A stretch of 47,062 nucleotides of DNA from a virus. This document shows positions 13,661-45,773 of this stretch, in pieces. The stretch's first letter is position 1. Every line of letters starts with the position of its first letter. The DNA lies in IMG/VR virus record IMGVR_UViG_3300014720_000051, positions 1-47,062 of that record; one strand, given 5' to 3'. Made by a program: the position numbers and the translations under genes. The notes beneath the pieces are model-generated. The model saw nothing but the letters and a program-made list of their open reading frames with translations, had not been told where the DNA came from and searched no databases.

Positions 13661-13667
13661 ACCCACT

Positions 13668-16169: not shown

Positions 16170-17009
16170 CTAAGCAGATCCTAGCTCGGCTCCATAGTCA
16201 TATAATTTTAATTCATTATCATCATTCAGAGATTTTCCCCAATGCTCTATACGAGCAACATCGCCTATCAATAAATTATGTTGCCTTATCAATTTTATAA
16301 CGTTAGTTAAAAAAGCTACAACCTTCTGATATACTTCACTATTCAAATCAATACTTTCATATTGCTCTAATATGTCTTCTCTCGTGCTACGTGCCTGGGC
16401 TAACATGTTAGCATCTAATCCAGAACTAGGATTAGAACGAATTTCATGTTCACGTTTTATAAAAGAATCTATCTCAGTGCGTAATGATTTCATATAAGCA
16501 TCAATTAATTTCTCCCCAGTGTTAATCTGAGAGTCTTTCTCTACCTCTTTTAATCCTTCAACAAATAAATCTTCGGGTATACCAGTAGCTTCACTAAATG
16601 CATCACTATTTGGGTTTATCGGAGTCACACGCTCAGAGATAATCCATTTATATCCATCCCTGTCCCAATCTAATACTTTCGCTAATAAAGGATTGTTAGA
16701 TTCTTTTTCCGATATCTCTACTTCTTTCTTATTTTGTGCAATACCTGTGTTCGTATAAGCTATTTTTAATACTTCTTTCTCTGATAAAATATATACTTTG
16801 CGTCCAGAGCCTTCACTTGCATAATTTAATTCCTCATTAGCATAACTCAATATATTATTGAATTCATCACTAACCTCTGGTGATGTTTGACTGGAGGTAG
16901 GTGATTGAACCTCTTCCCCCGCCTCAATTTTCTCTTTTTCTTGTTCTTCTAAAATTGTTTTTATTTGCAATTTTATGAATTCTTTTAGTATTCTCATAAG
17001 CTTTATCAC
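16170..17009 (-). CDS. Helix-tagged kinase-like protein (paralogue 1)
   Basis: 279 residues from a GTG overlapping the upstream stop (GTGA); an ATG at 16997 is the alternative. The N-terminal helix is MRILKEFIKLQIKTILEEQ, followed by a Ser/Thr/Pro linker. The kinase-like core has EGSGRKVYIL (66-75), VLKIAYTNTGIAQNK (Lys82), 'YKWIISERV' hinge, then 'IGDVARIEHWGKS' and KLYDYGAE near the C-terminus (catalytic-loop and DFG equivalents). The usual HRD Asp is represented by 'GD'. It is operonic with the larger paralogue and probably a phosphotransferase or pseudokinase acting on host targets. Confidence 0.65.
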   Translation of the reverse strand: MIKLMRILKEFIKLQIKTILEEQEKEKIEAGEEVQSPTSSQTSPEVSDEFNNILSYANEELNYASEGSGRKVYILSEKEVLKIAYTNTGIAQNKKEVEISEKESNNPLLAKVLDWDRDGYKWIISERVTPINPNSDAFSEATGIPEDLFVEGLKEVEKDSQINTGEKLIDAYMKSLRTEIDSFIKREHEIRSNPSSGLDANMLAQARSTREDILEQYESIDLNSEVYQKVVAFLTNVIKLIRQHNLLIGDVARIEHWGKSLNDDNELKLYDYGAELGSA

Positions 17010-22890: not shown

Positions 22891-22918
22891 ATTATAGCGG
22901 AGAAAAAGGAGGTGTCAA
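22891..22918 (-). promoter_or_regulatory. Promoter of the 51-aa basic protein
   Basis: TTGACA, 16-bp spacer, perfect TATAAT, 6 nt to the ATG. The -35 contains the stop codon of the helix-tagged gene upstream. Confidence 0.8.
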
Positions 22919-23331
22919 GTTTCTTCTGCCAAATCTTTTAGTATTTTTTTAAGATCCTTGAAATCGTCAACACTTAAACCAAAACTATTTTTTACCGTGA
23001 GTTCAACTTTTTTACCTCGAACCCAGTCTTTTGGTTTTAGTTTATCAAGAGTCCAACGAAGTTTCGTTGCTGTTTTCGTTTTTCTAGCTTCTTTATTTTC
23101 GAAGTGAAACAACAGGTTTTCTGTACCGGTAGCGTATACCTGGTAATTCTTATTATTATAATTTAAATATATTAGACTTGGTTTAAATGGATCACGGGGA
23201 CTACGCTGACTAAACTTTACATCAGTAACAAAAATTTTATGTTCCCCGCCTTCAGACTCCCCTTCAGATTCCAAAAGTTTATTTACCTCTTCTGCAATAA
23301 TCTGTCTTAACTCTGTTAGCTTTATTTTCAT
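22915..23331 (-). CDS. Helix-tagged protein of unknown function (138 aa)
   Basis: The N-terminus MKIKLTELRQIIAEEVNKLLES is a textbook version of the shared amphipathic tag, then an acidic Gly/Glu linker. The body (HKIFVTDVKFSQRSPRDPF ... 'SLIYLNYNNKNYQVYATG' ... 'KTATKLRWTLDKLKPKDWVRG') looks like a small beta-rich domain plus helices; no family is recognised. It stands alone among early genes but has TATTTA 5 nt from the ATG instead of a TTGAC promoter, and its base composition is AT-rich. Confidence 0.75.
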   Translation of the reverse strand: MKIKLTELRQIIAEEVNKLLESEGESEGGEHKIFVTDVKFSQRSPRDPFKPSLIYLNYNNKNYQVYATGTENLLFHFENKEARKTKTATKLRWTLDKLKPKDWVRGKKVELTVKNSFGLSVDDFKDLKKILKDLAEET

Positions 23332-23418: not shown

Positions 23419-23763
23419 TCACTCTCCGTCGTCTTCGATGGATCGCCGCCACGACTCCATGAAGGAACGGATATTCTGTGCTCCAACCGGGTTAGCGGAG
23501 TGGATCTGATAGTCGGGGATCATCACCTTGCCGAAGGAATGCCAGCCGGGGCGGGTAGGATCGGCATGGGTGGGAATACTGACCCAATGCTTGAGGAAAA
23601 CCATTGCGCTATCCTCCCCTCCGAGATCATGGTCGAAGGATATAAACTGAGGGGTTCCAAGCTCCCGAATGCGGTTGATAGCCTCCTTGGAGGAACGGCA
23701 GACGAGCCAATCCCGATCAGCGGGGGGAGTACGGAGATCGTCGAGGTAGAGGTTCCAGGTCAT
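23419..23763 (-). CDS. cREC (cyclic-phosphate-processing receiver) domain protein
   Basis: 114 residues matching the cREC family (PF20274): LYLDDLRTPP (5-14), 'DWLVCRSSKEAINRI', 'QFISFDHDLGG', then an Asp/His-rich region and the basic C-terminus ESWRRSI. cREC domains resemble response-regulator receivers and were predicted to act on cyclic or terminal phosphates in RNA or nucleotide processing, which fits the RNA ligases downstream. Leaderless. Confidence 0.8.
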   Translation of the reverse strand: MTWNLYLDDLRTPPADRDWLVCRSSKEAINRIRELGTPQFISFDHDLGGEDSAMVFLKHWVSIPTHADPTRPGWHSFGKVMIPDYQIHSANPVGAQNIRSFMESWRRSIEDDGE

Positions 23764-27763: not shown

Positions 27764-28819
27764 TCAGATTTTGCTCAGATATAGAGCTGGTGCGATAATT
27801 TTTTCTACTATTTTCTGTGCAGTTAAGTTAACTTTTGTTGCAAACGGGGAGCTTGGTATCTTTGCGTAAAAGTCAAGTACCAATTTAAAGTCATCTTTAT
27901 TTTCTTGTTTGTCAAGCCAACTTTTATATAAAAGCCAAGGATGTTTAATTAATTTGTTTGCAAAAGCTTCATCAGATTTCTTTACGTCCATAACGCCAGT
28001 TTTGATTTCGTTAGCGATTTCTTTGGCTATTTTCTTCATTCCTGAAGTAATAATTGGTAGATGTAAGTCCTGAAGAGCTGGTACAATAATTTCCTGTGTA
28101 ATATCATAAGCAGCTTTGTTTAAACTTCTTAACAATTTGGGATCTTCCCTGTAGAGATTAATAAGCCTAGAGAAAACCTTTTCATTTCGCAATCTTTCAT
28201 AGAGGCGATATGGTCTAGCAACCAGATTTTCGCCTAATTTTTGGTCAACTAAGGATCCAGATTTGATTGATTTTGCAACTTTTTTTGCTTCCATTTCCAT
28301 TGCTGGAACAAGTGTTCCGCCGAGGAAGGCTGATATTTCATGTGGTTGACTTGCATATTTTTCAAAGTCTTTTTCATCTACAGTAGGATCTACACGGAAA
28401 TATTTTAAGTTAAAAAAATGAGTAAGCTCATGAGGAATTATTGACTTAAACCATATGTCGTAAGCCAAGTAATCTACATTTAATCCTATTATATTTGTAT
28501 TTGGATCGTACCAGCCTGTTGGTGCTTTTTCATTTGTATCTAGGAAAAATTGAAAGAATATGTAGATATCCATTCCTGTAATGGGATCTTTAACTTTAAA
28601 CCTTGACATCTGGTCATGAGTTATTTTAACTACTTTCTTTTTTCGCGCTTTTTTTTTCAATTGCAGATGCTTGTTTGCTTCAACAGCTTTTAAATAAATT
28701 CTGTTCTTTAACGCCGGATCAAACTCAAACCCACCTGTTCTTGGACCAGTACGAGCAGTAACTTCCTGTATTATTTCTTTAACAGTTTCTTTTATAAAGG
28801 TTTTTAATAGTTGACTCAT
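27764..28819 (-). CDS. Helix-tagged zincin-type metalloprotease
   Basis: 351 residues. The N-terminal amphipathic tag MSQLLKTFIKETVKEIIQEV (1-20) precedes a protease-like domain with 'FKSIIPHELTHFFN' (HELTH, 130-134), the zinc-binding catalytic motif, and a probable downstream ligand in 'SQPHEISAF' (Glu161). The C-terminal 180 residues are helical. TATTTA is 7 nt from the ATG and no sigma70 promoter is present, although all neighbours have one. A packaged protease could mature the virion or attack host proteins on entry (inference). Confidence 0.8.
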   Translation of the reverse strand: MSQLLKTFIKETVKEIIQEVTARTGPRTGGFEFDPALKNRIYLKAVEANKHLQLKKKARKKKVVKITHDQMSRFKVKDPITGMDIYIFFQFFLDTNEKAPTGWYDPNTNIIGLNVDYLAYDIWFKSIIPHELTHFFNLKYFRVDPTVDEKDFEKYASQPHEISAFLGGTLVPAMEMEAKKVAKSIKSGSLVDQKLGENLVARPYRLYERLRNEKVFSRLINLYREDPKLLRSLNKAAYDITQEIIVPALQDLHLPIITSGMKKIAKEIANEIKTGVMDVKKSDEAFANKLIKHPWLLYKSWLDKQENKDDFKLVLDFYAKIPSSPFATKVNLTAQKIVEKIIAPALYLSKI

Positions 28820-33809: not shown

Positions 33810-34460
33810 TTATCGAGCAAGACGATTAGGCTGGATTGCCTGATGCATCCAATGAGAATCGGTCTGAACATGGTTAGCTCGCACAAACTTTGCAACGTGG
33901 CTTTCAAACTCAACCATCGGAAATGCAGCGGCAGAACGAATAACATATCCTTCTGCAACAGAAGAAGAGAAACGGCTGGGAAACGGATAAAGATCCTTGA
34001 CCGTATTCATATTCCAGATACCCTGGAACAGTACGGGTGCATAGGGCAGATTAAGCAGATTTGCCCATTCTTCTACCTCGCACCAGGGTCTAGAGATATT
34101 ATTGTGGTCAGCAATCCCAAATAGAACAAAATAGCCAGGAAGCCGATCATAGCCAATGGAGTGCTTGGCATACAAATTTTCTCCCATGAGCCTCCATCCT
34201 TCCGGGATGGAGAGACTGGCGATCTCTCGTGCCTTAGAACGAACATAGTCACGGGAAGGGTGATTGCCGGAATCAAGACTACGAGCGTGACACTCACCAT
34301 TCCAATAAATGGTTGTGTTCTCTCCGTCTAGCTTTTCCGTAATGACAACAGACTTCTCCGCAAACATTTCCTCAATCTGGGAGGTAGAATGCGTCTTGTC
34401 ATCGCTAGATGCACCTTGGGACCAAGGCACATGAAACGTTCTGGGATATTTCTGTTTCAT
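33810..34460 (-). CDS. RNA ligase (RNA_ligase/Rnl2-like family)
   Basis: 216 residues. Motif I is TEKLDGENTT with nucleophile Lys43; motif III/IIIa region 'GENLYAKHSIGYDRLPGYF', motif IV EGYVIR, motif V-like 'AKFVR'. The opening YPRTFHVPWSQG is typical of the group that includes T4 Rnl2-type enzymes of phages and bacteria. It seals 3'-OH/5'-phosphate RNA ends using ATP. No C-terminal domain follows, so it is a minimal ligase. Leaderless early gene. Confidence 0.88.
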   Translation of the reverse strand: MKQKYPRTFHVPWSQGASSDDKTHSTSQIEEMFAEKSVVITEKLDGENTTIYWNGECHARSLDSGNHPSRDYVRSKAREIASLSIPEGWRLMGENLYAKHSIGYDRLPGYFVLFGIADHNNISRPWCEVEEWANLLNLPYAPVLFQGIWNMNTVKDLYPFPSRFSSSVAEGYVIRSAAAFPMVEFESHVAKFVRANHVQTDSHWMHQAIQPNRLAR

Positions 34461-34466
34461 GCATTA

Positions 34467-34494
34467 GGTATAGCATAGGGGAGTAGAGAGTCAA
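34467..34494 (-). promoter_or_regulatory. Promoter of the small RNA ligase gene
   Basis: TTGACT, 16-bp spacer, TATACC, 6 nt to the ATG. Confidence 0.7.
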
Positions 34495-34498
34495 GTTT

Positions 34499-34981
34499 TT
34501 ATTTTGAATAAAGGATATCAAAGATATGAGGAGCTTGACGAAATAATTTTCTGACATGAACTTTAGCTTTAAACTGAAGGGCAGGGTATTGAGAACGAAA
34601 CTCATGTCCTTTTTTCAATACTTCTTCACACCAGCCATCTGATCCATTATGAATGGTTAACCAATCAATAAACTCACCTACTGTAGTTGCAAGGATTTTA
34701 TCTATTTTTCCCGCCCGATGAAGAATAAATAAAATTATTATCTTACGGTCTTCAGGACTCAAGTTATAAAATTTACCTGAATCAAACCATTGTAAATCAT
34801 TTTGTTTCTTTGACTCAATACGGATTAATCCATCTGCGGTAGGATATTCCCAATCGTGTAAAGGTGCATTAATACGTTTCCAGCCATGAAAAAAGGCGGC
34901 AAAGGTATTTTCCTTGCCGCCTTGACCGCTTACATTTAAGGGAAGATTTGCGAAATTAAATAATATTGGATCTACTCTCAT
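34499..34981 (-). CDS. 160-aa hypothetical protein
   Basis: Starts 1 nt after the previous stop. MRVDPILFNFANLPLNVSGQ, 'NDLQWFDSGKFYNLSPEDRK', 'TTVGEFIDWLTIHNGSDGW'. A helical conserved-looking protein without a family match I can name. Confidence 0.65.
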   Translation of the reverse strand: MRVDPILFNFANLPLNVSGQGGKENTFAAFFHGWKRINAPLHDWEYPTADGLIRIESKKQNDLQWFDSGKFYNLSPEDRKIIILFILHRAGKIDKILATTVGEFIDWLTIHNGSDGWCEEVLKKGHEFRSQYPALQFKAKVHVRKLFRQAPHIFDILYSK

Positions 34982-34982
34982 A

Positions 34983-35204
34983 TCACACCATTGGCTTCAT
35001 CGGACGACCCCGAGCGGGACGGAGAAAGCTCACATCAACCCAACCTTCGTTACCAATCTTATTCTTCACATAAGCATGGTAAGGGAGAGTGGTAGAAATG
35101 TCCAGAACAACAACACGTTCACCCTCGTTGAAGTGATCACAGTCACCATCTGTCTCGAAGATTTCACGAGTGACAATGAGGTTCTTTCCGGTACGCAGTA
35201 GCAT
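34983..35204 (-). CDS. 73-aa SH3-like hypothetical protein
   Basis: Start MLLRTGKNLIVTREIFETDG at 35204 (SD AAGGAG). 'NEGERVVVLDISTTLPYHAY' and 'NEGWVDVSFLRPARG' look like a small beta-barrel (SH3-like). Coupled to the 160-aa gene. Confidence 0.65.
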   Translation of the reverse strand: MLLRTGKNLIVTREIFETDGDCDHFNEGERVVVLDISTTLPYHAYVKNKIGNEGWVDVSFLRPARGRPMKPMV

Positions 35205-35225
35205 TTCTTGTCTCCTTATATTTTT

Positions 35226-35254
35226 AGTATAGGATACTTTCCAGAAGAAGTCAA
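35226..35254 (-). promoter_or_regulatory. Promoter of the 73-aa/160-aa operon
   Basis: TTGACT, 17-bp spacer, TATACT; 21-nt leader with SD. Confidence 0.75.
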
Positions 35255-35265
35255 CCAATTTTTGG

Positions 35266-35346
35266 TTAGTGAATATTTTTAATATATTCTAGAATAGCAC
35301 CAGAAAGAAGGAAAGCATAGAGGAAAAAAAGCCAACCTAGACCCAT
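35266..35346 (-). CDS. 26-aa membrane peptide
   Basis: MGLGWLFFLYAFLLSGAILE and YIKNIH. Its ATG follows the previous stop by 1 nt; single hydrophobic helix. Confidence 0.5.
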   Translation of the reverse strand: MGLGWLFFLYAFLLSGAILEYIKNIH

Positions 35347-35347
35347 A

Positions 35348-35773
35348 TCAATCTCCGCTATCAATTTCGAATTTGATACCACAATCGTTGCATTGATACT
35401 GATTATAGCACCGACCAAGATTTGCAACGTGCCGATGATTATAGTGTCGGCACTTTGATAGCGCCTCTTGCCGGAAAGTTTCCAGATCATTTAGAGCGGG
35501 TGCAATCTCCCCTGGATCACTTACGGCGAAATACTTAGAATAACCACCCATAGTAGCATTATGCACATGGACTCCAAGCTGGAGTCCACTCACGGTACCA
35601 TTGTTGTGGTAACTTGGATAGCAGGAAAAACGCCACTCAGGAACAACAGCACGAGGAGCAGGAGCCTCAAAAACCGGGTAAGAGTCATTGGTAACACGAG
35701 CACCGTTGCTCAGGGTATTGAGGACATTCAGAATGACGTTGGCATACTGCTCAAGGGATTCGATCTTGTTCAT
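35348..35773 (-). CDS. 141-aa protein with C-terminal zinc-binding site
   Basis: Start MNKIESLEQYANVILNVLNT at 35773, leaderless. The C-terminal 35 residues hold Cys, His-x-x-His-like (HYNHRH) and 'CNDCGIKFEID', a zinc-ribbon layout. The N-terminal part has beta strands around 'WRFSCYPSYHNNGTVSGLQLG'. Unknown family. Confidence 0.7.
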   Translation of the reverse strand: MNKIESLEQYANVILNVLNTLSNGARVTNDSYPVFEAPAPRAVVPEWRFSCYPSYHNNGTVSGLQLGVHVHNATMGGYSKYFAVSDPGEIAPALNDLETFRQEALSKCRHYNHRHVANLGRCYNQYQCNDCGIKFEIDSGD

Positions 35774-35779
35774 ATATTC

Positions 35780-35808
35780 TTTATACCTCACGGCAAGGAA
35801 GTAGTCAA
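35780..35808 (-). promoter_or_regulatory. Promoter of the 141-aa gene
   Basis: TTGACT, 17-bp spacer, TATAAA, 6 nt to the ATG. Confidence 0.75.
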
Positions 35809-35824
35809 GCGATTTCAATAAAGA

Positions 35825-36928
35825 TCATTGAAACTCGGTAACGTTTCCCTTTCGGAATAAATAATCCTCGGAGACAGACTTTAGCTGAATCCTGCCACCT
35901 AGCGGGAGATTTCCTAGAATACGATCCCCGCCCCATACACGCTCCATAACGGGTCGCACAACAACACCCTCCCTCACATGGGTAGCGTGTCCCGAAACCG
36001 TCTCCTTGCCCCTTGTATGGGCTTCTAGAGCCTCTAGGGAGAACGGTCCACGGTAGAGCACCGGCACCCTAGCAACCCCTAGCTTGGTGCAAGCATCGTC
36101 CAGTTCCGCATCATCAAGGAAACGACCCGTGCCAGGATTGCCAAGATAAATATCGAATACTCGGAATTGAACCGTCTTACCATAAGTAAGATCCTGAACC
36201 CCTGGTCCGAAAATCTCACCTAGAATAAAAACGCTACGATCAAGAGAAAAAATCTCCTTGACCTTTGGAAGTAGGTTTCCATTCTTAGCGGTACGACAGT
36301 AAACGTTCTTGTCATTCTTTTCCGAATGGACTCGGAAAGCCAAACCCTTTGCAGCTAGACCTTTACTAGAAACAATCAGGCGTGAAGCATCATCCTCTCC
36401 CGGCAAGCGTAGGTCATCGCTCAAAAAACCAAACAAGGCAAACGTACCATGACATTTCTCGGTCATAACAACGGTTTCGCCAGGAATAAAGACATTCACA
36501 AAACGCTTGAAATTCTCAATATCGTACTTGAGTGTACGCTGAGTAGAGACATTCATCATATCCCCGTAGAAAGCTGCTGGAATAACCGGCTCATACTTGG
36601 TGATTCCAAGCTCCACGGCAACGTCCTGTCCAGGGGTCCACGAGGGTTCTGCATCAATACAAATGCCTTGAGAAAGAATACCACGAAGCTTTACCGGCTT
36701 AATACGGTTTTTTGCAGCACCAGCAAGCCTTCCAGTTAGACCAAGCCGATCAATAAGAGTAGGAGGAAGGATAGCATCCTCGGGAATGTATGCAACAAGA
36801 TCACCAGTAGTAAACTGTCCCTTGCGAACCACAGAATGATATGCGCCAATACGAGCAAGCTCTAGAGCATCAGCGTTAGGGTGATTCTCAATTGTGACAG
36901 GTAGTACGGTGACTTGAAAAGTAGACAT
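35825..36928 (-). CDS. RNA ligase, DraRnl/Rnl5-like (DRB0094 family)
   Basis: 367 residues. The N-terminal OB-fold module is unmistakable for this family: 'ENHPNADALELARIGAYHSV', VRKGQFTTGDLVAYIPE, 'LAGAAKNRIKPVKLRGILSQ'. The ligase domain has motif I TEKCHGTFALFGF (Lys158; His replaces the usual Asp), 'FILGEIFGPGVQDLTYG', 'EGVVVRPV' and 'RIQLKSVSEDYLFRK'. Members such as Deinococcus DraRnl seal 3'-OH/5'-PO4 RNA nicks. With the small ligase 1.4 kb away, the phage owns two RNA ligases. Confidence 0.92.
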   Translation of the reverse strand: MSTFQVTVLPVTIENHPNADALELARIGAYHSVVRKGQFTTGDLVAYIPEDAILPPTLIDRLGLTGRLAGAAKNRIKPVKLRGILSQGICIDAEPSWTPGQDVAVELGITKYEPVIPAAFYGDMMNVSTQRTLKYDIENFKRFVNVFIPGETVVMTEKCHGTFALFGFLSDDLRLPGEDDASRLIVSSKGLAAKGLAFRVHSEKNDKNVYCRTAKNGNLLPKVKEIFSLDRSVFILGEIFGPGVQDLTYGKTVQFRVFDIYLGNPGTGRFLDDAELDDACTKLGVARVPVLYRGPFSLEALEAHTRGKETVSGHATHVREGVVVRPVMERVWGGDRILGNLPLGGRIQLKSVSEDYLFRKGNVTEFQ

Positions 36929-36949
36929 TGATCCCTCTCTTGTTCTCTT

Positions 36950-36977
36950 AGAATAGCATGGAGAAAAAAAGTGTCAA
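36950..36977 (-). promoter_or_regulatory. Promoter of the DraRnl-like gene
   Basis: TTGACA, 16-bp spacer, TATTCT; 21-nt leader with SD. Confidence 0.75.
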
Positions 36978-36987
36978 CCCTTTTCTT

Positions 36988-37287
36988 TCAAGAAACTAGG
37001 TTCAGAAACTGAAAGTCTCTCTTGACTATCCAGCCCCTTTTATCACCAGAAATAACTTCGATTACGCAGAAGTGTTCTTCAATTTCATAAGAGGTATCAA
37101 CAACCAAAAAGAAGGTGGCTTCAGGCAAATAATATACCGGAGTTTTGTGAAAAGAAGCTAAGGTCTGACAACGCAAGGGACCATCAAAGCGGTTAATAGG
37201 ATTTGACCCATAGTCCCAATACGCCACACTACGATCAGCATAAAGGGCTATGGGTTCAATACTCCAATATAATTCCCCTGCTTTCAC
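36988..37287 (-). CDS. 99-aa hypothetical protein, GTG start
   Basis: GTG at 37287 overlaps the stop of the GIY-YIG gene (GTGA). KAGELYWSIEPIALYADRSV, 'TPVYYLPEATFFLVVDTSY', 'DKRGWIVKRDFQFL'. A beta-rich small domain, unknown. Confidence 0.65.
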   Translation of the reverse strand: MKAGELYWSIEPIALYADRSVAYWDYGSNPINRFDGPLRCQTLASFHKTPVYYLPEATFFLVVDTSYEIEEHFCVIEVISGDKRGWIVKRDFQFLNLVS

Positions 37288-37619
37288 TTGGACTTTCCAA
37301 GAATGTTGAGGGTAGGATTGAGGTTACGAATGTAGTTCATTTCCTGAGTGTGAGCCTCGGTCTTACCTCGCACCACCGCAAGAATTTCCTTGGAGAAGGA
37401 ATCGGAACCATGCGTGCGGATCCGTTCGGCAAGAGTGGTAGGACGATTCTCAACCGTAGCATGGTAGCAGTGACCCGTCCAGCGGATCTCCATGCTCTTC
37501 TTGAAGGCTCGTCCACGAGCCACGGTGATACCGATATAAGTCTCCCCGGTGGGGTTGCAGGTAAGCTGGTAGATAACGTGGTTTCGATCCGAGCGGGGCT
37601 TACGCTTCGTCGTTTCCAT
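37284..37619 (-). CDS. GIY-YIG-like nuclease-fold protein (111 aa)
   Basis: Leaderless. 'HVIYQLTCNPTGETYIGIT' is the GIY-YIG beta-hairpin (VIY...YIG), then a basic helix 'RGRAFKKSMEIRWTGHCYHA' with the Arg position, and 'SDSFSKEILAVVRGKTEAH' with the metal-ligand Glu region. Small size and no DNA-binding tail suggest a structure-specific nuclease rather than a homing enzyme. Confidence 0.75.
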   Translation of the reverse strand: METTKRKPRSDRNHVIYQLTCNPTGETYIGITVARGRAFKKSMEIRWTGHCYHATVENRPTTLAERIRTHGSDSFSKEILAVVRGKTEAHTQEMNYIRNLNPTLNILGKSK

Positions 37620-37625
37620 ACTCTT

Positions 37626-37653
37626 AGAATAGCATAGTGACAGAGGAAGTCAA
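37626..37653 (-). promoter_or_regulatory. Promoter of the GIY-YIG-like gene
   Basis: TTGACT, 16-bp spacer, TATTCT, 6 nt to the ATG. Confidence 0.75.
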
Positions 37654-38165
37654 CCTCTTTCAGAACTTTTTAGATCGTATGTTTCTTCAAGTTTTCTTAT
37701 TAATTCTTCTATTGACCCGGCGGACTTTAAGAAGGCTGGAACGTTGTATAGATTCTGTTCTAGTTCATTTCTAATGTCACTAGCAATATTACGTGCTTCT
37801 GTGTTTAAAAGAGCCATATCAGTTCCAGAACGGTCAGCAAGAAGAGATTCAAGTTCCATTTTCTTATCAAGAAGAAATGATCTCATGTCTTCCCTTGACA
37901 TATTAAGGGGTCTTGAGTCATTTATTTCTTTAGAGAAGTTCATAACAAGATCATCTACTAGGGCATTACCGGCATTGTATGATTTGGATAGTCTATAGAC
38001 TTTATTATCTACCGTAGCAACTGTTTCGGTTCCAAGCTCATCAACTGGATCTGGTTCTAGATATAATTTAACTGGTACTGTGATACTTGGTTGTTTTTCT
38101 AAAACGGATTTGCTTATTTCTTCTTTTATAAGGAGGGAGATAACTTCTTTTAATACTTTTTCCAT
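37650..38165 (-). CDS. Helix-tagged protein of unknown function (171 aa)
   Basis: The start at ATG 38165 gives MEKVLKEVISLLIKEEISKS, another clear tag. The body has 'VKLYLEPDPVDELG', 'VATVDNKVYRLSKSYNAGNA' and helical stretches rich in Met/Leu/Asp. The 9-bp inverted repeat AAGGTAATT/AATTACCTT lies directly upstream of the ATG and can fold. No TTGAC promoter. Unknown function. Confidence 0.7.
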   Translation of the reverse strand: MEKVLKEVISLLIKEEISKSVLEKQPSITVPVKLYLEPDPVDELGTETVATVDNKVYRLSKSYNAGNALVDDLVMNFSKEINDSRPLNMSREDMRSFLLDKKMELESLLADRSGTDMALLNTEARNIASDIRNELEQNLYNVPAFLKSAGSIEELIRKLEETYDLKSSERG

Positions 38166-38199
38166 GAAGGTAATTATTTGCTTTTGAATCAATTACCTT
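38166..38199 (-). promoter_or_regulatory. Inverted repeat next to the start codon
   Basis: AAGGTAATT and AATTACCTT separated by 15-16 nt, ending 1 nt before the ATG at 38165; a possible translational or protein-binding operator. Confidence 0.45.
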
Positions 38200-38220
38200 T
38201 AATTGCTGGATAAAAGAAAA

Positions 38221-38242
38221 AGGAGAGGAATTACCCTCTCCT
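38221..38242 (-). terminator. Terminator after amidotransferase copy 1
   Basis: AGGAGAGG/CCTCTCCT stem, TTTTTCTTTTATC tail. Confidence 0.8.
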
Positions 38243-38264
38243 AGTTCCCACGCCCCTTTTTGTT

Positions 38265-38981
38265 TCAAACGTCGGCGTAGATTGACTGCCAATCAACCTC
38301 GCTTCCAAACTTCCCCCAGCCGAGATTCCGCTTCCGAAGCGGGGTGGTGTACCAAGTATCGGGATCCAGACCATCGAAAGAATACTGATTAGCATACCAA
38401 ACCGGGGTTCCCATACCGTCTACGGTATCGATCTCTAGCGCCCCCTCCTTGGGGCACTCAAACCAGCCCGTCTTAGCGTTGACGATTGCGGTGATTCCAC
38501 CAGTAGCGAAAAACACCAGTCGGTTGTTTCCGATGGTCTTACCCATCTTCTCCAAAACGTGCTCACGGAACAGGTCAAGGGGATTATCCCAAGTCAAAAT
38601 CTTAGTGCGGAGAGCCAACGCAAACTGCATCGTATCGCTGGCATCCTTACTGCTAGGCATAGCCTCAATCGTGCCGTTGTGCATCATGTAAAGATCCATT
38701 CCATCCTTCTCTTCGGTGAGGATCGGGAACGGGTGGCACGCAGTCTCCCCAACGGGTCCACGGGTACGGTAGCGGAGGTGAATCGCATGGGGGGTTCCGA
38801 TCAGCATCTCATGGAGATCCCAAAGCTCCGCAAACGTGTACATGCCTCGGAGAGTCTGCACCCTGCCAGACTGACGATCATGCCACATCACACCAACACC
38901 ATCACGGTTGTTGTCAAAGGCAGTCTCAAGGCGGATCTTGAGAAGGGGAGCACCGGTCGGGTTGTTGATAATCTGGCACAT
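38265..38981 (-). CDS. Class II glutamine amidotransferase-like protein (copy 1)
   Basis: 238 residues. Met-Cys start (MCQIINNPTG) gives the N-terminal nucleophile Cys2 of Ntn-type GATase II. 'AIHLRYRTRGPVGETACHPF' supplies the substrate Arg, 'MDLYMMHNGTI' the oxyanion Asn-Gly. The C-terminal 110 residues end 'GWGKFGSEVDWQSIYADV', with no synthase domain. It releases ammonia from glutamine or acts as an amidase; the amidoligase at 18.9 kb is a candidate partner. 66 percent-like similarity by eye to copy 2 (not computed). SD AAAGGGA. Confidence 0.85.
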   Translation of the reverse strand: MCQIINNPTGAPLLKIRLETAFDNNRDGVGVMWHDRQSGRVQTLRGMYTFAELWDLHEMLIGTPHAIHLRYRTRGPVGETACHPFPILTEEKDGMDLYMMHNGTIEAMPSSKDASDTMQFALALRTKILTWDNPLDLFREHVLEKMGKTIGNNRLVFFATGGITAIVNAKTGWFECPKEGALEIDTVDGMGTPVWYANQYSFDGLDPDTWYTTPLRKRNLGWGKFGSEVDWQSIYADV

Positions 38982-39008
38982 TGTCTCGTTCCCTTTCGTT
39001 ATATTCTT

Positions 39009-39036
39009 ATTGTAGCAGATCAGAAAGAAGAGTCAA
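39009..39036 (-). promoter_or_regulatory. Promoter of amidotransferase copy 1
   Basis: TTGACT, 16-bp spacer, TACAAT; 27-nt leader. Confidence 0.75.
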
Positions 39037-39046
39037 GCTTTTTCTT

Positions 39047-39199
39047 TTACCCACCAAAAATTGCCTTGAGCCCCTCCCAAACAATGACAAAAGGCAAAGC
39101 AACGGAGCCAAAGACAAGAAAGACAAGAAACGGCAAGCCAACAAAAAAGAGGCAGATATATGCAAACAGCCAGAAGATTGCGGAACCAAAGTGTCTCAT
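39047..39199 (-). CDS. 50-aa membrane peptide
   Basis: Leaderless. MRHFGSAIFWLFAYICLFFV then GLPFLVFLVFGSVALPFVIV: one or two hydrophobic helices. Confidence 0.65.
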   Translation of the reverse strand: MRHFGSAIFWLFAYICLFFVGLPFLVFLVFGSVALPFVIVWEGLKAIFGG

Positions 39200-39205
39200 A
39201 AGGTT

Positions 39206-39233
39206 ATGATAGCATCATGCTTCTGAATGTCAA
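39206..39233 (-). promoter_or_regulatory. Promoter of the 50-aa membrane peptide
   Basis: TTGACA, 16-bp spacer, TATCAT, 6 nt to the ATG. Confidence 0.75.
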
Positions 39234-39370
39234 CCAAAAAGAATTTGATACCAAGCAAGTGCTGGAGTGACAAAACCAATTAAAAATAATAAAGTTACTA
39301 GGACAACAGCCATAACAAAGAATGCTCCAGCAAAGATTGCTGCCTTAAGTAAGAATATTGGTAAGTCCAT
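39230..39370 (-). CDS. 46-aa membrane peptide
   Basis: MDLPIFLLKAAIFAGAFFVM then VVLVTLLFLIGFVTP; two hydrophobic helices. Follows the 50-aa gene by 12 nt; its TGA is in the next -35. Confidence 0.6.
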   Translation of the reverse strand: MDLPIFLLKAAIFAGAFFVMAVVLVTLLFLIGFVTPALAWYQILFG

Positions 39371-39382
39371 ATCAATTATTCC

Positions 39383-39535
39383 TCATGACATAAAGAAACT
39401 TGCTAGAAGATAAAAAAGATAAGTAAATCCTCCAGCTAATGCTGCTGCAACTGAGATTGCTATTGGCACTCCTAATCCAATGATTATGGGCATTACAATT
39501 AATAATCCAATTAAGGTCTTAATATCTTCCATCAT
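39383..39535 (-). CDS. 50-aa membrane peptide
   Basis: MMEDIKTLIGLLIVMPIIIG then VPIAISVAAALAGGFTYLFY. Paired with the 46-aa gene. TATTTA at 39587-39592 upstream suggests late expression, so the pair could be holin-like (inference from size, topology and motif). Confidence 0.6.
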   Translation of the reverse strand: MMEDIKTLIGLLIVMPIIIGLGVPIAISVAAALAGGFTYLFYLLASFFMS

Positions 39536-39586
39536 GCATTCATGATGCCATAGGAGACAAGATATTTTAACAATATTTCATGTTAT

Positions 39587-39592
39587 TAAATA
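39587..39592 (-). promoter_or_regulatory. TATTTA late-type motif before the membrane-peptide pair
   Basis: TATTTA lies 51 nt upstream of the ATG at 39535. A TTGACT exists upstream but with an abnormal 20-nt spacing. Confidence 0.3.
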
Positions 39593-39643
39593 CTTTTCTT
39601 TTTCCCGCCTTGAGTCAACAGAGATTATTAAAAAGACAAAAAA

Positions 39644-39663
39644 ATAGCCCCATGCGGGGCTAT
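39644..39663 (-). terminator. Terminator after the 85-aa gene
   Basis: ATAGCCCC/GGGGCTAT stem, T7 tail. Confidence 0.85.
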
Positions 39664-39685
39664 AGAAGAGGCTAGAATGTTCTTC

Positions 39686-39943
39686 TCATTCGGAGAAATA
39701 GCCAGGATCCTCGACAACTTCACCGTCATTCTCTTCCAGAAAACAACGAGCATCAGAAATCATCTTGCTAGCAGTCTTGTGCTGACAATTGACAGTACCA
39801 TCGGTAGCACCACACTTGCAAGCCTGCCAACCAAAAGAGCTAGCCAAGCTAGGAAAATCCCAATCAATCTGAACGAAAATATCCCGACCGCTATCGAGAT
39901 CGGTAACAAGAAAGCCACCAGATGCCTTGTCAAGTCGAATCAT
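39686..39943 (-). CDS. 85-aa Cys/His zinc-binding-like protein
   Basis: MIRLDKASGGFLVTDLDSGR then 'ACKCGATDGTVNCQHKTASK', a CxC...CxH arrangement as in SWIM-like zinc sites, and an acidic end. SD GGAGG. Confidence 0.7.
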   Translation of the reverse strand: MIRLDKASGGFLVTDLDSGRDIFVQIDWDFPSLASSFGWQACKCGATDGTVNCQHKTASKMISDARCFLEENDGEVVEDPGYFSE

Positions 39944-39961
39944 TTTGCCTCCGAGTTCTTC

Positions 39962-39989
39962 ATAATATCAGAAGGATAATGGAAGTCAA
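39962..39989 (-). promoter_or_regulatory. Promoter of the 85-aa gene
   Basis: TTGACT, 16-bp spacer, TATTAT; 18-nt leader. Confidence 0.7.
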
Positions 39990-39990
39990 A

Positions 39991-40122
39991 TCAATTTGAT
40001 AGCTGCATCAGGATTGTAACGGTATCATAAACCGTGGACAATTCTGCGGCAAACCATTCTGCGGCTTCCTTAGAGCCTGTAAAATGACAAATATTATCTA
40101 CCCAAACACTATATAGCTTCAT
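39991..40122 (-). CDS. 43-aa hypothetical protein
   Basis: Strong SD AGGAGG. MKLYSVWVDNICHFTGSKEA then EWFAAELSTVYDTVTILMQ. Last gene of the 40.8-40.0 kb run. Confidence 0.6.
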   Translation of the reverse strand: MKLYSVWVDNICHFTGSKEAAEWFAAELSTVYDTVTILMQLSN

Positions 40123-40131
40123 GTTACCCTC

Positions 40132-40215
40132 CTAGAAAAGTAGGTATGCATAAACAAGACTAAAAAACGCAATATTATAAATACCAATTAGAATAATTGA
40201 ATTTGCTCGATGCAT
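40132..40215 (-). CDS. 27-aa membrane peptide
   Basis: MHRANSIILIGIYNIAFFSL and VYAYLLF; single hydrophobic helix, 9 nt before the next ATG. Confidence 0.5.
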   Translation of the reverse strand: MHRANSIILIGIYNIAFFSLVYAYLLF

Positions 40216-40255
40216 AATAGGGTTTAATTATGGGGTAGAAATATCTTATTCTAGG

Positions 40256-40459
40256 TTAAGGTTTAAGATTCGATGAAGAAACTTCGTTTAATGCCCTGAC
40301 TGCATCTGGAGAGATTGTAACATAATCCATGCGATCTGCATTACGAATAACTTTAAAGACATTATTCTCTGGAACCGCAATCAATTCTGGACGTTTAGCA
40401 TAGTTAGTCCAATAAAGCTCATATATATGTCCGTTAGATATATTCCGAACATCAGACAT
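40256..40459 (-). CDS. 67-aa hypothetical protein
   Basis: MSDVRNISNGHIYELYWTNY, 'KRPELIAVPENNVFKVIRNA'. Overlaps the upstream gene by 8 nt. Unknown. Confidence 0.65.
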   Translation of the reverse strand: MSDVRNISNGHIYELYWTNYAKRPELIAVPENNVFKVIRNADRMDYVTISPDAVRALNEVSSSNLKP

Positions 40460-40694
40460 CCGTTACTTCCTCTCTCTTAACAAAGTCGCTATAGAGTAGC
40501 GTAGGCTTACTAATAGCCTCTATCATAGATTGCAGATCCCCAGCGATATCTTCTAGATTATCACCATATGGTGCAACAGGCATGGAGGAGCAATACTGAG
40601 GATTGCCTTCATCATCATAATATACCTCATAGATACCAAGCCATTTAGTACCATCGGTATATTCACGTTCAAGAATTCTGTAATTCCAACTCAT
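40452..40694 (-). CDS. 80-aa conserved hypothetical (NYRI-VYY family)
   Basis: 'MSWNYRILEREY', 'WLGIYEVYYDDEGNPQYCSS' and 'LQSMIEAISKPTLLY' match a small protein seen in many phages and bacteria (W-N-YRI, heVYYD--G-p, A--kP-L). Function unknown. Confidence 0.75.
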   Translation of the reverse strand: MSWNYRILEREYTDGTKWLGIYEVYYDDEGNPQYCSSMPVAPYGDNLEDIAGDLQSMIEAISKPTLLYSDFVKREEVTDV

Positions 40695-40707
40695 ATGAGT
40701 TAACTAT

Positions 40708-40833
40708 TCAACCGGTGAGAATATAAATACCAGTAAAGAAAGTAACAAAGCAAATAACTGCATCTGCCTTAAAACGATACCATGCGACAGGCGAACCAAA
40801 GAAAAGACAGAAACCAATAAACGTACTAATCAT
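40708..40833 (-). CDS. 41-aa membrane peptide
   Basis: MISTFIGFCLFFGSPVAWYR then AVICFVTFFTGIYIL; SD AAAGGAG inside the end of the kinase gene, to which it is coupled. Confidence 0.6.
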   Translation of the reverse strand: MISTFIGFCLFFGSPVAWYRFKADAVICFVTFFTGIYILTG

Positions 40834-40834
40834 A

Positions 40835-41287
40835 TCAAACTCCTTTCACAACAGTTTCAGGAATACCAAGGAAGGCAGGAAGAGGCTGGAAACGATCCTG
40901 CATAGCCTTGACGCTAACATCAGGAACACCATGAAGGTTACGGGCAGCAGCAACCGTAACGGGAGTATCCATTCGGACAACATTAACGATATATCCATAC
41001 GCCCATGCAAGCTGCACATAGCCGTAAAACTCAAAAAGCTGAGTGTTAGTGTTGTCCACCACGACAGTTTCCCGCCAATCAGAAAGAGCAGTCATAAACT
41101 TGCTGTAGCACCACCGATGCGCTTCTCCGAGCTTGTGGGGATTAAACTTATAATCCCCAGCAGAATCAATGAAGAAATCATCGGCGGAGCAAACGTATGC
41201 ACCAGGAAGATGGTCGCGAATATAGGTGCTCTTACCCGAGCCTGAGATCCCACGAAGAATCGTTACCATGTTTTTATCGCAACTCAT
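40835..41287 (-). CDS. P-loop polynucleotide-kinase-like protein
   Basis: 150 residues, single kinase module: Walker A RGISGSGKST (12-21), 'AYVCSADDFFIDSAGDYKFN', 'GEAHRWCYSKFM', VVVDNTNTQLFE, and the lid 'AARNLHGVPDVSVKAMQDRF'. This order matches the AAA_33/N4BP2-like kinases and the kinase half of bacterial Pnkp. Probably phosphorylates 5'-OH RNA or DNA ends. A Pnkp-like phosphatase gene begins 1.2 kb upstream. Confidence 0.85.
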   Translation of the reverse strand: MSCDKNMVTILRGISGSGKSTYIRDHLPGAYVCSADDFFIDSAGDYKFNPHKLGEAHRWCYSKFMTALSDWRETVVVDNTNTQLFEFYGYVQLAWAYGYIVNVVRMDTPVTVAAARNLHGVPDVSVKAMQDRFQPLPAFLGIPETVVKGV

Positions 41288-41306
41288 TGTTTCAACCTCT
41301 TATTCG

Positions 41307-41334
41307 AGAATAGCACACTAAGCTAACGAGTCAA
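41307..41334 (-). promoter_or_regulatory. Promoter of the kinase gene
   Basis: TTGACT, 16-bp spacer, TATTCT; 19-nt leader with SD. Confidence 0.75.
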
Positions 41335-41351
41335 CTCTTTTCTTCAAAAGA

Positions 41352-41552
41352 TCAGTTTAGAAAACTGAATTGTCGAATAATCTGATTTGTCACCCACTTA
41401 GTATCCCCCGGATTATCCGAAAAAGCCACAAGATACTTGCGCTCATAATCCGTAACATCGCTAGCAATAACCGTCACATGATAAGGCTTTCCCAGCACAA
41501 ACATCGTGACTTTATCGCCCTTATTATATAGCTTTTCAACATCTCCAACCAT
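41352..41552 (-). CDS. 66-aa hypothetical protein
   Basis: Start MVGDVEKLYNKGDKVTMFVL at 41552, SD GGAGG 6 nt away. A small beta-barrel-like protein ('KPYHVTVIASDVTDYERKYL'). Preceded by a micro-ORF and a hairpin leader. Confidence 0.65.
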   Translation of the reverse strand: MVGDVEKLYNKGDKVTMFVLGKPYHVTVIASDVTDYERKYLVAFSDNPGDTKWVTNQIIRQFSFLN

Positions 41553-41580
41553 ATTATACCTCCAAGTTTGGATTAAGTGT

Positions 41581-41637
41581 TCAAATAATGACCTCAAGGA
41601 TACAAATATACTCTCCAGAGGTCATATAGGTTGTCAT
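41581..41637 (-). CDS. 18-aa leader peptide
   Basis: MTTYMTSGEYICILEVII, 8 nt after a strong -10. Its coding sequence contains an ATGACCTC/GAGGTCAT hairpin. It ends 28 nt before the 66-aa gene, so it could be an attenuation or leader ORF. Confidence 0.4.
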   Translation of the reverse strand: MTTYMTSGEYICILEVII

Positions 41638-41645
41638 ATATGGTA

Positions 41646-41674
41646 TGTATAACACGATATAAGTGCGGTGTCAA
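41646..41674 (-). promoter_or_regulatory. Promoter of the leader peptide/66-aa unit
   Basis: TTGACA, 17-bp spacer, TATACA, 8 nt to the micro-ORF. Confidence 0.7.
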
Positions 41675-41695
41675 GGGGGAAGATGAATATTTCTT

Positions 41696-42457
41696 TCACA
41701 TTTCCGAACCAAGAGCGAAATACTCACGGCGAGCTTGCACTTGAACAATCTCACGACTACGAGGAAGGTCAGGATCAAGAATCATAGCAGTAAGACGACC
41801 ACCAAAAACTGCTCCGGTGTCAATCCCATAAGCACGACCCATGCCAATTCCATCCCAAGTCTTGATACTCTGTAGACCTACAACGGTATGTCCAAAGATA
41901 ACATCACTTGAACCATCCCAGATTTCAGCCCAGAAAATTGAATCTGGTGGCTGCTTAAATCCAGGCATTACAAGAGAAAGCATCTTACGGGTATCCCGAT
42001 GCACATACCGGACCATCGTAAGAATCTCCTTACTCTGCTTATCGAGCGCAACGCCAGGAAGCAAACCAGCGTGAACAACGATTACATCAAACTGAGGAAG
42101 ATAAATATAATAGGGAAGAGCCGTTAGCCAAGCACGCTCCGTAGCCCCAAGAAGCGAAATGGTACGCTCCTGATCCTCATGCGGAGTCATGGGGTTCTTA
42201 TACTTAGGGTTGCTGGCAATCTTATCCATGTGACCCCAGCGACGAAGAAGCTTTGCGTCATGGTTTCCCTGGATAGCTTCTGCACCAAGCTCCATAGCAA
42301 GTCGAACCACGCCAGGGCTATCAGGACCACGATCTACGAGGTCACCGGCAAAAATACATCTATCGGAATATTTATTATAGTTAACAACATCAAGCAATGT
42401 TTTTAGCTCTGAAAGGCAACCATGAACATCTCCAATTACAATTGTTCTTTTACTCAT
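41696..42457 (-). CDS. PPP-family metallophosphatase, Pnkp-like
   Basis: 253 residues with all PPP metal motifs: IGDVHGC (8-14), GDLVDRGPDS (38-47), 'IQGNHDAKLLRRW' (62-74), VVHAGL, and 'FGHTVVG'. 'GNHDAKLLR' is particularly close to the phosphatase domain of bacterial Pnkp, which removes 2',3'-cyclic and 3'-phosphates from RNA; Ap4A hydrolases are the alternative. The first 100 nt are AT-rich, unlike the rest of the gene, and a GIY-YIG gene overlaps the start on the other strand. Confidence 0.85.
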   Translation of the reverse strand: MSKRTIVIGDVHGCLSELKTLLDVVNYNKYSDRCIFAGDLVDRGPDSPGVVRLAMELGAEAIQGNHDAKLLRRWGHMDKIASNPKYKNPMTPHEDQERTISLLGATERAWLTALPYYIYLPQFDVIVVHAGLLPGVALDKQSKEILTMVRYVHRDTRKMLSLVMPGFKQPPDSIFWAEIWDGSSDVIFGHTVVGLQSIKTWDGIGMGRAYGIDTGAVFGGRLTAMILDPDLPRSREIVQVQARREYFALGSEM

Positions 42458-43234
42458 ACAAATAACGATAACACATTAGGTGGCAAATTTAAAGTTTATA
42501 TTCTATATGATAGTGCCGGAGAAATATTTTACGTTGGAGCAACTGAAAGAGAAATACATATCAGAAAATACCAACATATATCTGACAGCAGAAGAAAAAC
42601 AAAAACTGGAGATTGGTTACATCAATATCATATTAGTAGAAAATTACGTAATTTACGATGGAAATTTGATATCCATGTTATTTGCTGTTTTGAATTCAAA
42701 GAGCATATGTTTGAAGCAGAAAAATTTCACATAGCACGTTTAAGAGAACTTGGCTGTAATCTAGCCAATATTAGTTCTGGTGGAGCTGGTGGTACATGGT
42801 CATTAAATAAAATTTGCGATGAAGCTATGCGAAAAAATTTATGTATTTTAAATTCTGGTGTCAATAACCCAAATTATGGCAAGACCCCATCGCATGAAAC
42901 TAGAATGAAGCAACGTGAAAAAATGAAAAATAGAATTCCAGCTCATTTTAAAGATCCAATTAAAAAAGCCAATGCAATTGCAAAAATGAAAATAAACCGT
43001 CCGAACGTCAAAGGAGAAGCTAATCCAAATTTCGGAAATAGAGGCTCAAAATCTAAATTAGCTAAAGTTTTGTTGCAAATAGATAAAGCTGGTAACGTTA
43101 TCAATAAATTTATTGGACTTAAAGAAGCCGCTAGAACTCTTGGATATAATGAACGTTCTATTCGTAAAGTAATTACAGGATTAAGAAAAACATATCTTGG
43201 TTTCATATGGCGTTATGAAACAAAAAACCCCTGA
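42422..43234 (+). CDS. GIY-YIG homing endonuclease with NUMOD3 repeats
   Basis: 270 residues. The GIY-YIG domain is 'KVYILYDSAGEIFYVGATER' (24-43) with 'LREL' helix and 'NLANISSGGAGG' end. NUMOD3-type 'GVNNPNYGKTPSHETRMKQ' and 'GEANPNFGNRGSKSK' follow, then a helix-turn-helix ending 'KEAARTLGYNERSIRKVITG' as in NUMOD1/HTH. The ATG at 42422 lies inside the divergent phosphatase gene. AT-rich DNA and opposite orientation mark it as an inserted mobile element. Confidence 0.9.
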   Translation: MNISNYNCSFTHTNNDNTLGGKFKVYILYDSAGEIFYVGATEREIHIRKYQHISDSRRKTKTGDWLHQYHISRKLRNLRWKFDIHVICCFEFKEHMFEAEKFHIARLRELGCNLANISSGGAGGTWSLNKICDEAMRKNLCILNSGVNNPNYGKTPSHETRMKQREKMKNRIPAHFKDPIKKANAIAKMKINRPNVKGEANPNFGNRGSKSKLAKVLLQIDKAGNVINKFIGLKEAARTLGYNERSIRKVITGLRKTYLGFIWRYETKNP

Positions 43235-43247
43235 TTTCTCAGGGGTT
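43226..43247 (+). terminator. Terminator of the GIY-YIG gene (bidirectional)
   Basis: AACCCCTGA-TTTC-TCAGGGGTT; it overlaps the stop codon. Confidence 0.85.
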
Positions 43248-43272
43248 AAATATATCTAATTTTAATGGGGTT

Positions 43273-43491
43273 TCAGCAGGAAATGAGGAACTTTTTACAC
43301 ATATCTAGCAGGGCTAGGTTCTTATGCTTTGCTTCTACGTCAACGTCAATGGTATCTAGACGGAAGGCTTCTAGCTGCTGATCGGGGATTGTTATTGGAA
43401 GGAATAATCTCAATATCTGCTTCATCAGCTCACGAAACTCATCCGTGCAACCATGCGGATCACCAACAACAATTGTACGATGGGAAGTCAT
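43273..43491 (-). pseudogene. Truncated PPP-phosphatase N-terminus
   Basis: 72 codons: MTSHRTIVVGDPHGCTDEF is the first PPP metal motif and matches residues 1-19 of the phosphatase on the far side of the GIY-YIG gene (RTIVIGDVHGC). The remaining 45 residues bear no PPP motif. It has its own leaderless early promoter. Most simply, it is the original 5' end of the phosphatase gene, cut off by the insertion. Confidence 0.7.
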
Positions 43492-44985: not shown

Positions 44986-45059
44986 AGCCACACCAGGGAA
45001 TCGAACCCTGGACCTACGGTTTACGAAACCGTTGCTCTAGTCCACTGAGCTAGTGTGGC
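44986..45059 (-). tRNA. tRNA-Thr (anticodon CGU)
   Basis: Full cloverleaf on the minus strand: acceptor GCCACAC/GTGTGGC, D arm GCTC/GAGC, anticodon stem ACGGT/ACCGT with loop TTCGTAA (anticodon CGT, reads ACG), T arm CAGGG-TTCGATT-CCCTG. The base after the acceptor is T and no CCA is encoded. It lies 9 nt downstream of amidotransferase copy 2, so it is probably processed from that transcript. Confidence 0.92.
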
Positions 45060-45068
45060 AGAAATGAA

Positions 45069-45773
45069 TCACAAGATTCGGTAATTCACCCAACTATCGT
45101 CGGACAACCACTTATATCCGCCGCCGAAGGAATGACGAGTGGTAAAGTTAGTCTTGGAATCAAGACCACTAAACGAATACTCGTTAGCATACCAAGTAGG
45201 AGTGCTCATACCATCGAAGGTATCAATGTCGATCTTACCCTTCTCTGGATGATCAAACCAACCCTGCTTTGCATTAAGGATAGCGGTAAGACCACCCGAG
45301 CCGTAGAACACAAGACGATTGTAACCGATCACATTCTGGATCTTGGCGAGAACTGGCGAGCGGAAGAAGTCAAACGGATTCTCCCAGGAAAGAAGCTGAT
45401 CCCGCAGGCGACGAGCAAACGTCATGGTATCGCTCTCACCGTCAACGTTAGGAACGTCAAGGGTTCCGTTGTGCATCATGTAAAGATCCATTCCATCCTT
45501 TTCCTGGGTAAGAATAGGGAACGGGTGACACGCAACCTCACCGATGGGACCACGGGTGCGAAGGCGGAAGTGGATAGCGTGCGGGACACCGACCAACATA
45601 TTGTGCAGATCGGTATAGTCCTTGTGATTGAACATGCCCCGAAGGCTATGCACTCGACCAGTTTCCCGATCATGCCACATGACACCAACGCCATGCGGAT
45701 TATTGCTGAGAGCAACCTCCATACGAAGGGAATGAAGGGACTCGCCGGTAGGGTTATTGACAATCAGACACAT
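45069..45773 (-). CDS. Class II glutamine amidotransferase-like protein (copy 2)
   Basis: 234 residues. Cys2 (MCLIVNNPTG), 'AIHFRLRTRGPIGEVACHPF', 'MDLYMMHNGTL' and 'WYANEYSFSGLDSKTNFTT' align with copy 1 along the whole length. Catalytic Cys, Arg and Asn-Gly are kept in both. Retaining two divergent active copies suggests different partners. SD GAGGTGA. Confidence 0.85.
   Translation of the reverse strand: MCLIVNNPTGESLHSLRMEVALSNNPHGVGVMWHDRETGRVHSLRGMFNHKDYTDLHNMLVGVPHAIHFRLRTRGPIGEVACHPFPILTQEKDGMDLYMMHNGTLDVPNVDGESDTMTFARRLRDQLLSWENPFDFFRSPVLAKIQNVIGYNRLVFYGSGGLTAILNAKQGWFDHPEKGKIDIDTFDGMSTPTWYANEYSFSGLDSKTNFTTRHSFGGGYKWLSDDSWVNYRIL

Follow-up and report, generated by a model that had tools for sequence, protein, structure and literature searches.

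Does a phage carry the kinase, phosphatase and ligase functions of the bacterial RNA-repair enzyme Pnkp as separate genes, and, if so, do those genes descend from Pnkp? The question is raised by a linear virus record that is 47,062 bases long (IMGVR_UViG_3300014720_000051, 40% GC; the whole stretch is referred to here as the window), in which a first-pass annotation had read a kinase, a phosphatase, two RNA ligases, a cREC protein and a tRNA as a split Pnkp-like system. These genes all lie where they had been placed, as confirmed by open reading frame (ORF), Pfam/TIGRFAM and ARAGORN evidence; the ORFs are on the minus strand and have domain scores far above chance (Table 1). With moderate confidence, we favor the view that the window is a fragment from a jumbo or near-jumbo phage with a modular set for RNA end healing and sealing, carried as separate genes. 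Thus, the separate-gene part of the first reading is likely to hold, but descent from Pnkp was not supported by the analysis of the phosphatase described below.

Table 1. Features of the window that bear on RNA repair, and the elements beside them.
Feature	Position	Strand	Length and composition	Evidence
Small RNA ligase	33810..34460	-	216 aa; nucleotidyltransferase domain only	PF09414 1e-26
DraRnl-type RNA ligase	35825..36928	-	367 aa; N-terminal OB-like + ligase domains	RNA_ligase 2e-21
Stand-alone P-loop polynucleotide kinase-like protein	40835..41287	-	150 aa	Pfam AAA_33 3e-12
PPP-family metallophosphatase	41696..42457	-	253 aa	Metallophos 2e-13
cREC, predicted cyclic-phosphate processing receiver domain	23419..23763	-	114 aa	PF20274 cREC_REC
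GIY-YIG/NUMOD homing endonuclease	42422..43234	+		PF01541, PF07460, PF07453; phrog_314 3e-15; TIGR01453
Remnant ORF	43273..43491	-	Phosphatase N-terminus + UvdE-like tail	Sequence matching
tRNA-Thr (CGT)	44986..45059	-	Sole tRNA found	ARAGORN

By sequence, the 150-amino acid (aa) kinase belongs with phrog_2071, a family annotated as "ATPase" (2e-27), and polynucleotide kinases (PNKs) matched it weakly. Its AlphaFold2 model (predicted local distance difference test score, pLDDT, 92.8) is closest in the PDB to the kinase domain of C. thermocellum Pnkp (2e-9, TM-score 0.80), followed by mammalian PNK, archaeal PSTK and T4 Pnk; nucleoside kinases, which the first-pass annotation had raised as the competing affinity, were absent from the 50 matches listed in this search. 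Among 28 aligned members of the family, the P-loop, Asp36, Tyr46, His57, Asn79-Thr80 and His119 are invariant. The arginine of the Asp-x-x-Arg (DxxR) motif that follows the P-loop, which is important in PNK kinases, is found in the rows for T4 Pnk, Pnkp and the PseT-like protein of the 484-kb uncultured phage LR756508 (L005), but is not conserved in the phage kinase family, which has Phe, Trp or another residue there, in a register that depends on the alignment. The kinase also displays a DDFF ... VDNTNT ... HGVP pattern, which may resemble that of N4BP2-type PNK domains. N4BP2 is a protein with a PNK domain (PMC6598757).

We obtained relatives of both the kinase and the phosphatase from viral contigs with alignment queries, whereas single-sequence queries gave nothing; in a plasmid search, the kinase had a single match. 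An RNA ligase gene lay within 6 kb of the kinase relative in 37 of 80 viral loci and directly downstream in 20 of them, and after dereplication at 70% identity in 16 and 8, respectively, of 47 loci. In the comparison set, phosphatase loci scored in the same manner, an RNA ligase was found within 6 kb in 3 of 80. Rnl1 is the immediate neighbor of the kinase gene in Aeromonas phage phiA009, and one small gene lies between the two in Acidovorax phage ACP17. Among the four viral contigs with the closest relatives of the small ligase, two (L282 and L285) have the kinase just upstream of that ligase. Because the predicted fold is nearest the Pnkp kinase domain and many of the viral relatives lie near an RNA ligase gene, we consider it well supported that the 150-aa protein is a polynucleotide kinase-like enzyme of a separate family. 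For this compact phage family, annotated as "ATPase", a polynucleotide kinase function linked to RNA ligases is thus probable.

Both ligases of the window retain intact nucleotidyltransferase catalytic motifs in alignments. The 367-aa ligase had been called DraRnl-like, and this holds: it scores 249 bits against TIGR02306 (DraRnl/DRB0094), above the curated cut-off of 151, and combines a PF21189 OB-fold with PF09414. Its best matches are in the phage LR756508 (44% identity), with others in Caulobacter and Brevundimonas jumbo phages, and it is 60% identical to its homologue in G025, a 320-kb record that contains all five gene types. The 216-aa ligase (PF09414 domain, 94.5 bits compared to a cut-off of 27) has visible motifs I, III, IV and V (KLDGE, GENLYAKH, EGYVIR and AKFVR), and it matches phrog_34045 (7e-66) and phrog_24030 (7e-55). 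Homologues of this small ligase occur in 32 phage records (INPHARED), nearly all from phages larger than 230 kb. In CcrBL9, SCTP-2, ME3 and LR745208, this domain makes up the C-terminal portion of larger proteins (340-360 aa) whose N-terminal stretch is HNH-like by eye; the HNH N-terminus of this phrog_24030-type fusion is absent from the 216-aa protein of the window, which is the ligase part only. HNH-RNA ligase fusions have been described previously in jumbo phages (PMC7824862). We considered that the ORF at 34499-34981 might be the detached HNH domain, and rejected it because it has no similarity to the fused N-termini. Since relatives of both ligases sit in very large phages, the window is probably a piece of a large-phage genome, jumbo or near-jumbo; a megablast-level search of phage DNA records gave no match to it.

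The kinase and ligases might instead have DNA ends or nicked RNA-DNA hybrids, arising in replication and repair, as their main substrates rather than cleaved tRNA. PNK-type kinases accept DNA as well as RNA, and DraRnl is known for sealing nicks that have a 3'-OH RNA end, both of which would suit such a role. The neighbors of the kinase family are, however, RNA ligases, and in LR756508 the neighbors include a linked cREC and genes that appear by eye to be of a tRNA-processing type, such that we regard a mainly DNA-directed function as unlikely. The LR756508 region at 11980-37122 is dense in RNA-processing genes: within about 9 kb it has the small and DraRnl ligases, a cREC and a kinase-phosphatase that by eye is like T4 PseT. 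By eye, the region also contains TROVE, CCA-adding and Thg1-like genes.

In the phosphatase, the first-pass annotation had identified a Pnkp-like GNHDAKLLR motif. All PPP motifs are intact (GDVHG, GDLVDRGP, GNHD, HAG, FGH and IDTG). However, the best PDB match is not Pnkp either by sequence (1.1e-33 to 2qjc compared to 5e-15 to Pnkp 4j6o) or by fold (AlphaFold2 model, pLDDT 96.2; 3e-19 to 2qjc compared to 4e-12 to Pnkp, which ranks after 2qjc and near ApaH). The 2qjc structure is a trypanosome ApaH-like phosphatase (ALPH), deposited as a putative diadenosine tetraphosphatase, and the GNHDAKLL string is identical in it and in the window phosphatase, and in both proteins motifs 2 and 3 are equally far apart; motif 2 itself differs (GDLVNKG in 2qjc, GDLVDRG in the window). 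Because the same string is present in 2qjc, GNHDAKLL cannot identify Pnkp, and the analysis corrects a tempting reading: GNHDAKLLR alone is no marker of Pnkp.

Curated models and phylogeny gave a less one-sided picture of the phosphatase. The ApaH, Pnkp and PrpE models score 103, 90 and 59 bits, all below their own cut-offs; for ApaH, NF001204 scores 103 compared to a cut-off of 176, and TIGR00668 scores 65 compared to 223. The PHROG assignment is to NinI-like phosphatases, among plasmid matches, identity is highest to Pnkp genes from Deinococcus and Rhodococcus, and in profile comparisons the clade of the window phosphatase is about equidistant from Pnkp, NinI-like and alphaproteobacterial groups. 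In a tree of 93 rows with a poorly resolved backbone, Pnkp phosphatases group in a clade of their own (support 100) on a long branch with the window gene outside it, ApaH forms a separate clade, and the window gene falls in a phage-only branch beside 2qjc, the placement of which is weak (support 63). Joining the window clade to Pnkp was not rejected in an approximately unbiased (AU) test (p = 0.44). ALPHs are defined by a Lys in place of Arg in motif 2 (PMC8220851), and this Lys is absent from the window phosphatase and its close relatives, which have GDLVDRG. Thus, for the suggestion that the phosphatase might group with Ap4A hydrolases, pairwise sequence and fold comparisons favor 2qjc, but the tree places the gene outside the ApaH clade on an unresolved backbone. 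The gene represents a distinct phage branch that leans, in those pairwise comparisons, toward the Ap4A-hydrolase grouping, while the tree does not decide. Two viral phosphatases (L156 and L173) fall inside the Pnkp clade, which suggests that some viruses carry Pnkp-type genes.

Given this placement, the phosphatase might act outside of RNA repair altogether, either as an ApaH-like enzyme that hydrolyzes Np4N or removes Np4N-type 5' caps, or as a NinI-like protein phosphatase. We give this reading somewhat less than even weight, and the evidence divides. The top rank of 2qjc in sequence and fold, the higher score of the ApaH than the Pnkp model, the NinI-like assignment and the scarcity of ligase or kinase neighbors all favor it, but the ApaH score is short of its cut-off, and the missing ALPH lysine and the position outside of the ApaH clade argue against its ApaH-like form. 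The gene neighborhoods also speak against a role outside repair. The six closest relatives of the phosphatase are 60-64% identical to it, and four of them (L108, L110, L111 and L112) have a co-oriented cREC 1.5-2.8 kb upstream, about 60% identical to the window cREC. Moreover, a fifth locus (L127) has a cREC, the phosphatase and the small ligase within about 9 kb, and the phosphatase and small ligase are 2.2 kb apart in L140 and 2.6 kb apart in G025. The small ligase is thus within 6 kb of the phosphatase in 3 of 9 records compared to 0.6 expected (P = 0.014, a rough figure from a post hoc test under a uniform model), a proximity that is suggestive. Elsewhere, the kinase is the upstream neighbor of the phosphatase in L134, and a more distant cREC adjoins the small ligase in LR756508. 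Whole-record searches of 38 virus records with the phosphatase, many of them fragments, showed the kinase in 11; 10 have a cREC, and 9 have the small ligase, two of them with weak matches. The links of the phosphatase to cREC, small ligase and kinase are therefore recurrent, although thin.

A combined possibility, which we consider doubtful and slightly less probable than a mainly DNA-directed role for the kinase and ligases, is that the phosphatase is a phage ApaH/ALPH-like enzyme acting on 5'-capped (Np4N-/NpnN-type) RNA or on dinucleotide alarmones, beside a kinase and ligases that act in repair. If so, the phage would process both 5' caps and broken RNA ends.

We also weighed true descent, in which the kinase and the phosphatase would both stem from a bacterial Pnkp that had been split up. 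This is the least probable of the readings in our view and would be surprising, even though the kinase fold is nearest that of the Pnkp kinase domain, TIGR04075 is matched by both proteins, the AU test leaves the phosphatase with Pnkp unrejected and the two genes are neighbors in L134. The TIGR04075 scores (90 and 29 bits) are below the cut-off of 750; the fully supported, long-branch clade of Pnkp phosphatases excludes the window gene; the kinase family is without the DxxR arginine of the T4 Pnk and Pnkp rows and matches its own phage family with far better scores than Pnkp; and the ligases belong to the DraRnl family and to a jumbo-phage family. The window resembles bacterial Pnkp in its kinase, PPP phosphatase and ligase functions, and differs in that Pnkp is a fused polypeptide of about 850 aa whereas the window has separate ORFs of 150, 253, 216 and 367 aa.

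Returning to a modular repair set as the preferred reading, we propose that the separate enzymes could act in sequence. An RNase cut would produce one end with a 2',3'-cyclic phosphate and another with a 5'-OH, and cREC would open the cyclic phosphate. The window cREC was confirmed as genuine (PF20274, 63.9 bits compared to a cut-off of 27); its activity is a prediction of the literature, which reports the family as experimentally uncharacterized. A phosphatase, for which the PPP enzyme is the candidate, would then remove the remaining 3' or 2' phosphate, the stand-alone kinase would phosphorylate the 5'-OH, and one of the two ligases would seal the 3'-OH and 5'-phosphate ends. The substrate might be tRNA or another RNA, and the set may serve to undo cuts by host RNA-cutting defenses, as the first-pass annotation had supposed. 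Several observations weigh against this scheme. The genes are widely spaced in the window, with 18 kb between cREC and the phosphatase and about 4-7 kb between the ligases and the kinase; relatives of the phosphatase have a kinase within 6 kb in only 1 of 80 loci, in addition to the 3 of 80 with a ligase; and, as the record is incomplete, a dedicated end-healing enzyme could be encoded elsewhere in the genome.

The counter-defense idea is already in print: in surveys of jumbo phages, RNA cut by host defenses is predicted to be mended by ligases, kinases and cREC encoded as separate genes, at times together with calcineurin-like phosphoesterases (PMC7824862, PMC9503650). The neighborhoods described there, in jumbo and V5-like phages, share with the window a separate RNA ligase, kinase and cREC, in some cases a calcineurin-like phosphoesterase, and the same predicted end-healing logic. 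The window differs from them in its DraRnl-type ligase, HNH-less small ligase and stand-alone 150-aa kinase family; in addition, the window ORFs scanned included neither a sirtuin nor a 2H gene. Compared to T4, which likewise pairs a 5' kinase (Pnk, PseT) with RNA ligases, the window kinase has no HAD phosphatase attached, the phosphatase that is a candidate for the set is of the PPP family and neither ligase was assigned to Rnl1. Thus, the gene set is a further example of the RNA-repair sets already predicted in jumbo phages, with its own mix of parts, and it offers a concrete multi-gene set in which to study RNA repair by giant phages after cutting by host defenses.

Three features that the first-pass annotation had missed lie at the start of the phosphatase gene: a homing endonuclease, a remnant ORF and a GC-poor 5' end. 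The homing endonuclease gene is antisense to the phosphatase and overlaps its start; it is a mobile gene outside the repair set. In related loci (L108-L113), a UvdE-like gene (309 aa, named by eye) lies upstream of the phosphatase, and in L112 an endonuclease/methylase-like gene pair (by eye) is found between the two, the place that the homing endonuclease takes in the window. We considered the ORF at 43273-43491 as a second phosphatase gene and rejected it as a chimeric remnant, in which aa 5-26 match the start of the phosphatase and aa 35-72 match the end of that UvdE-like gene. Over its first ~120 bp, the phosphatase gene has a GC content of 33%, close to the homing endonuclease gene (32%), compared to about 49% for the remainder; it is plausible that the 5' end came in with the homing endonuclease, a point that DNA identity to relatives does not decide. 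The segment at 42353-43491, between the position of the UvdE-like gene and the phosphatase, is an apparent insertion hotspot.

Other parts of the window yielded minor observations. An ORF at 11244-12776 that looked KptA-like by eye received no support from Pfam. An isocitrate lyase gene (2717-3982; PF00463, 2.5e-109) is an unusual metabolic gene for a phage record. Two similar-looking proteins (38265-38981 and 45069-45773), one with a weak glutamine-amidotransferase-like match, flank the stretch with the kinase and phosphatase. Finally, six ORFs (7720-8292, 12758-13666, 17006-18418, 22915-23331, 27764-28819 and 37650-38192) that are otherwise unrelated resemble each other in a short amphipathic stretch at their start (for example MKIKLTELRQIIAEEVNKLL), which by eye recalls the capsid-targeting sequences of T4 internal head proteins.

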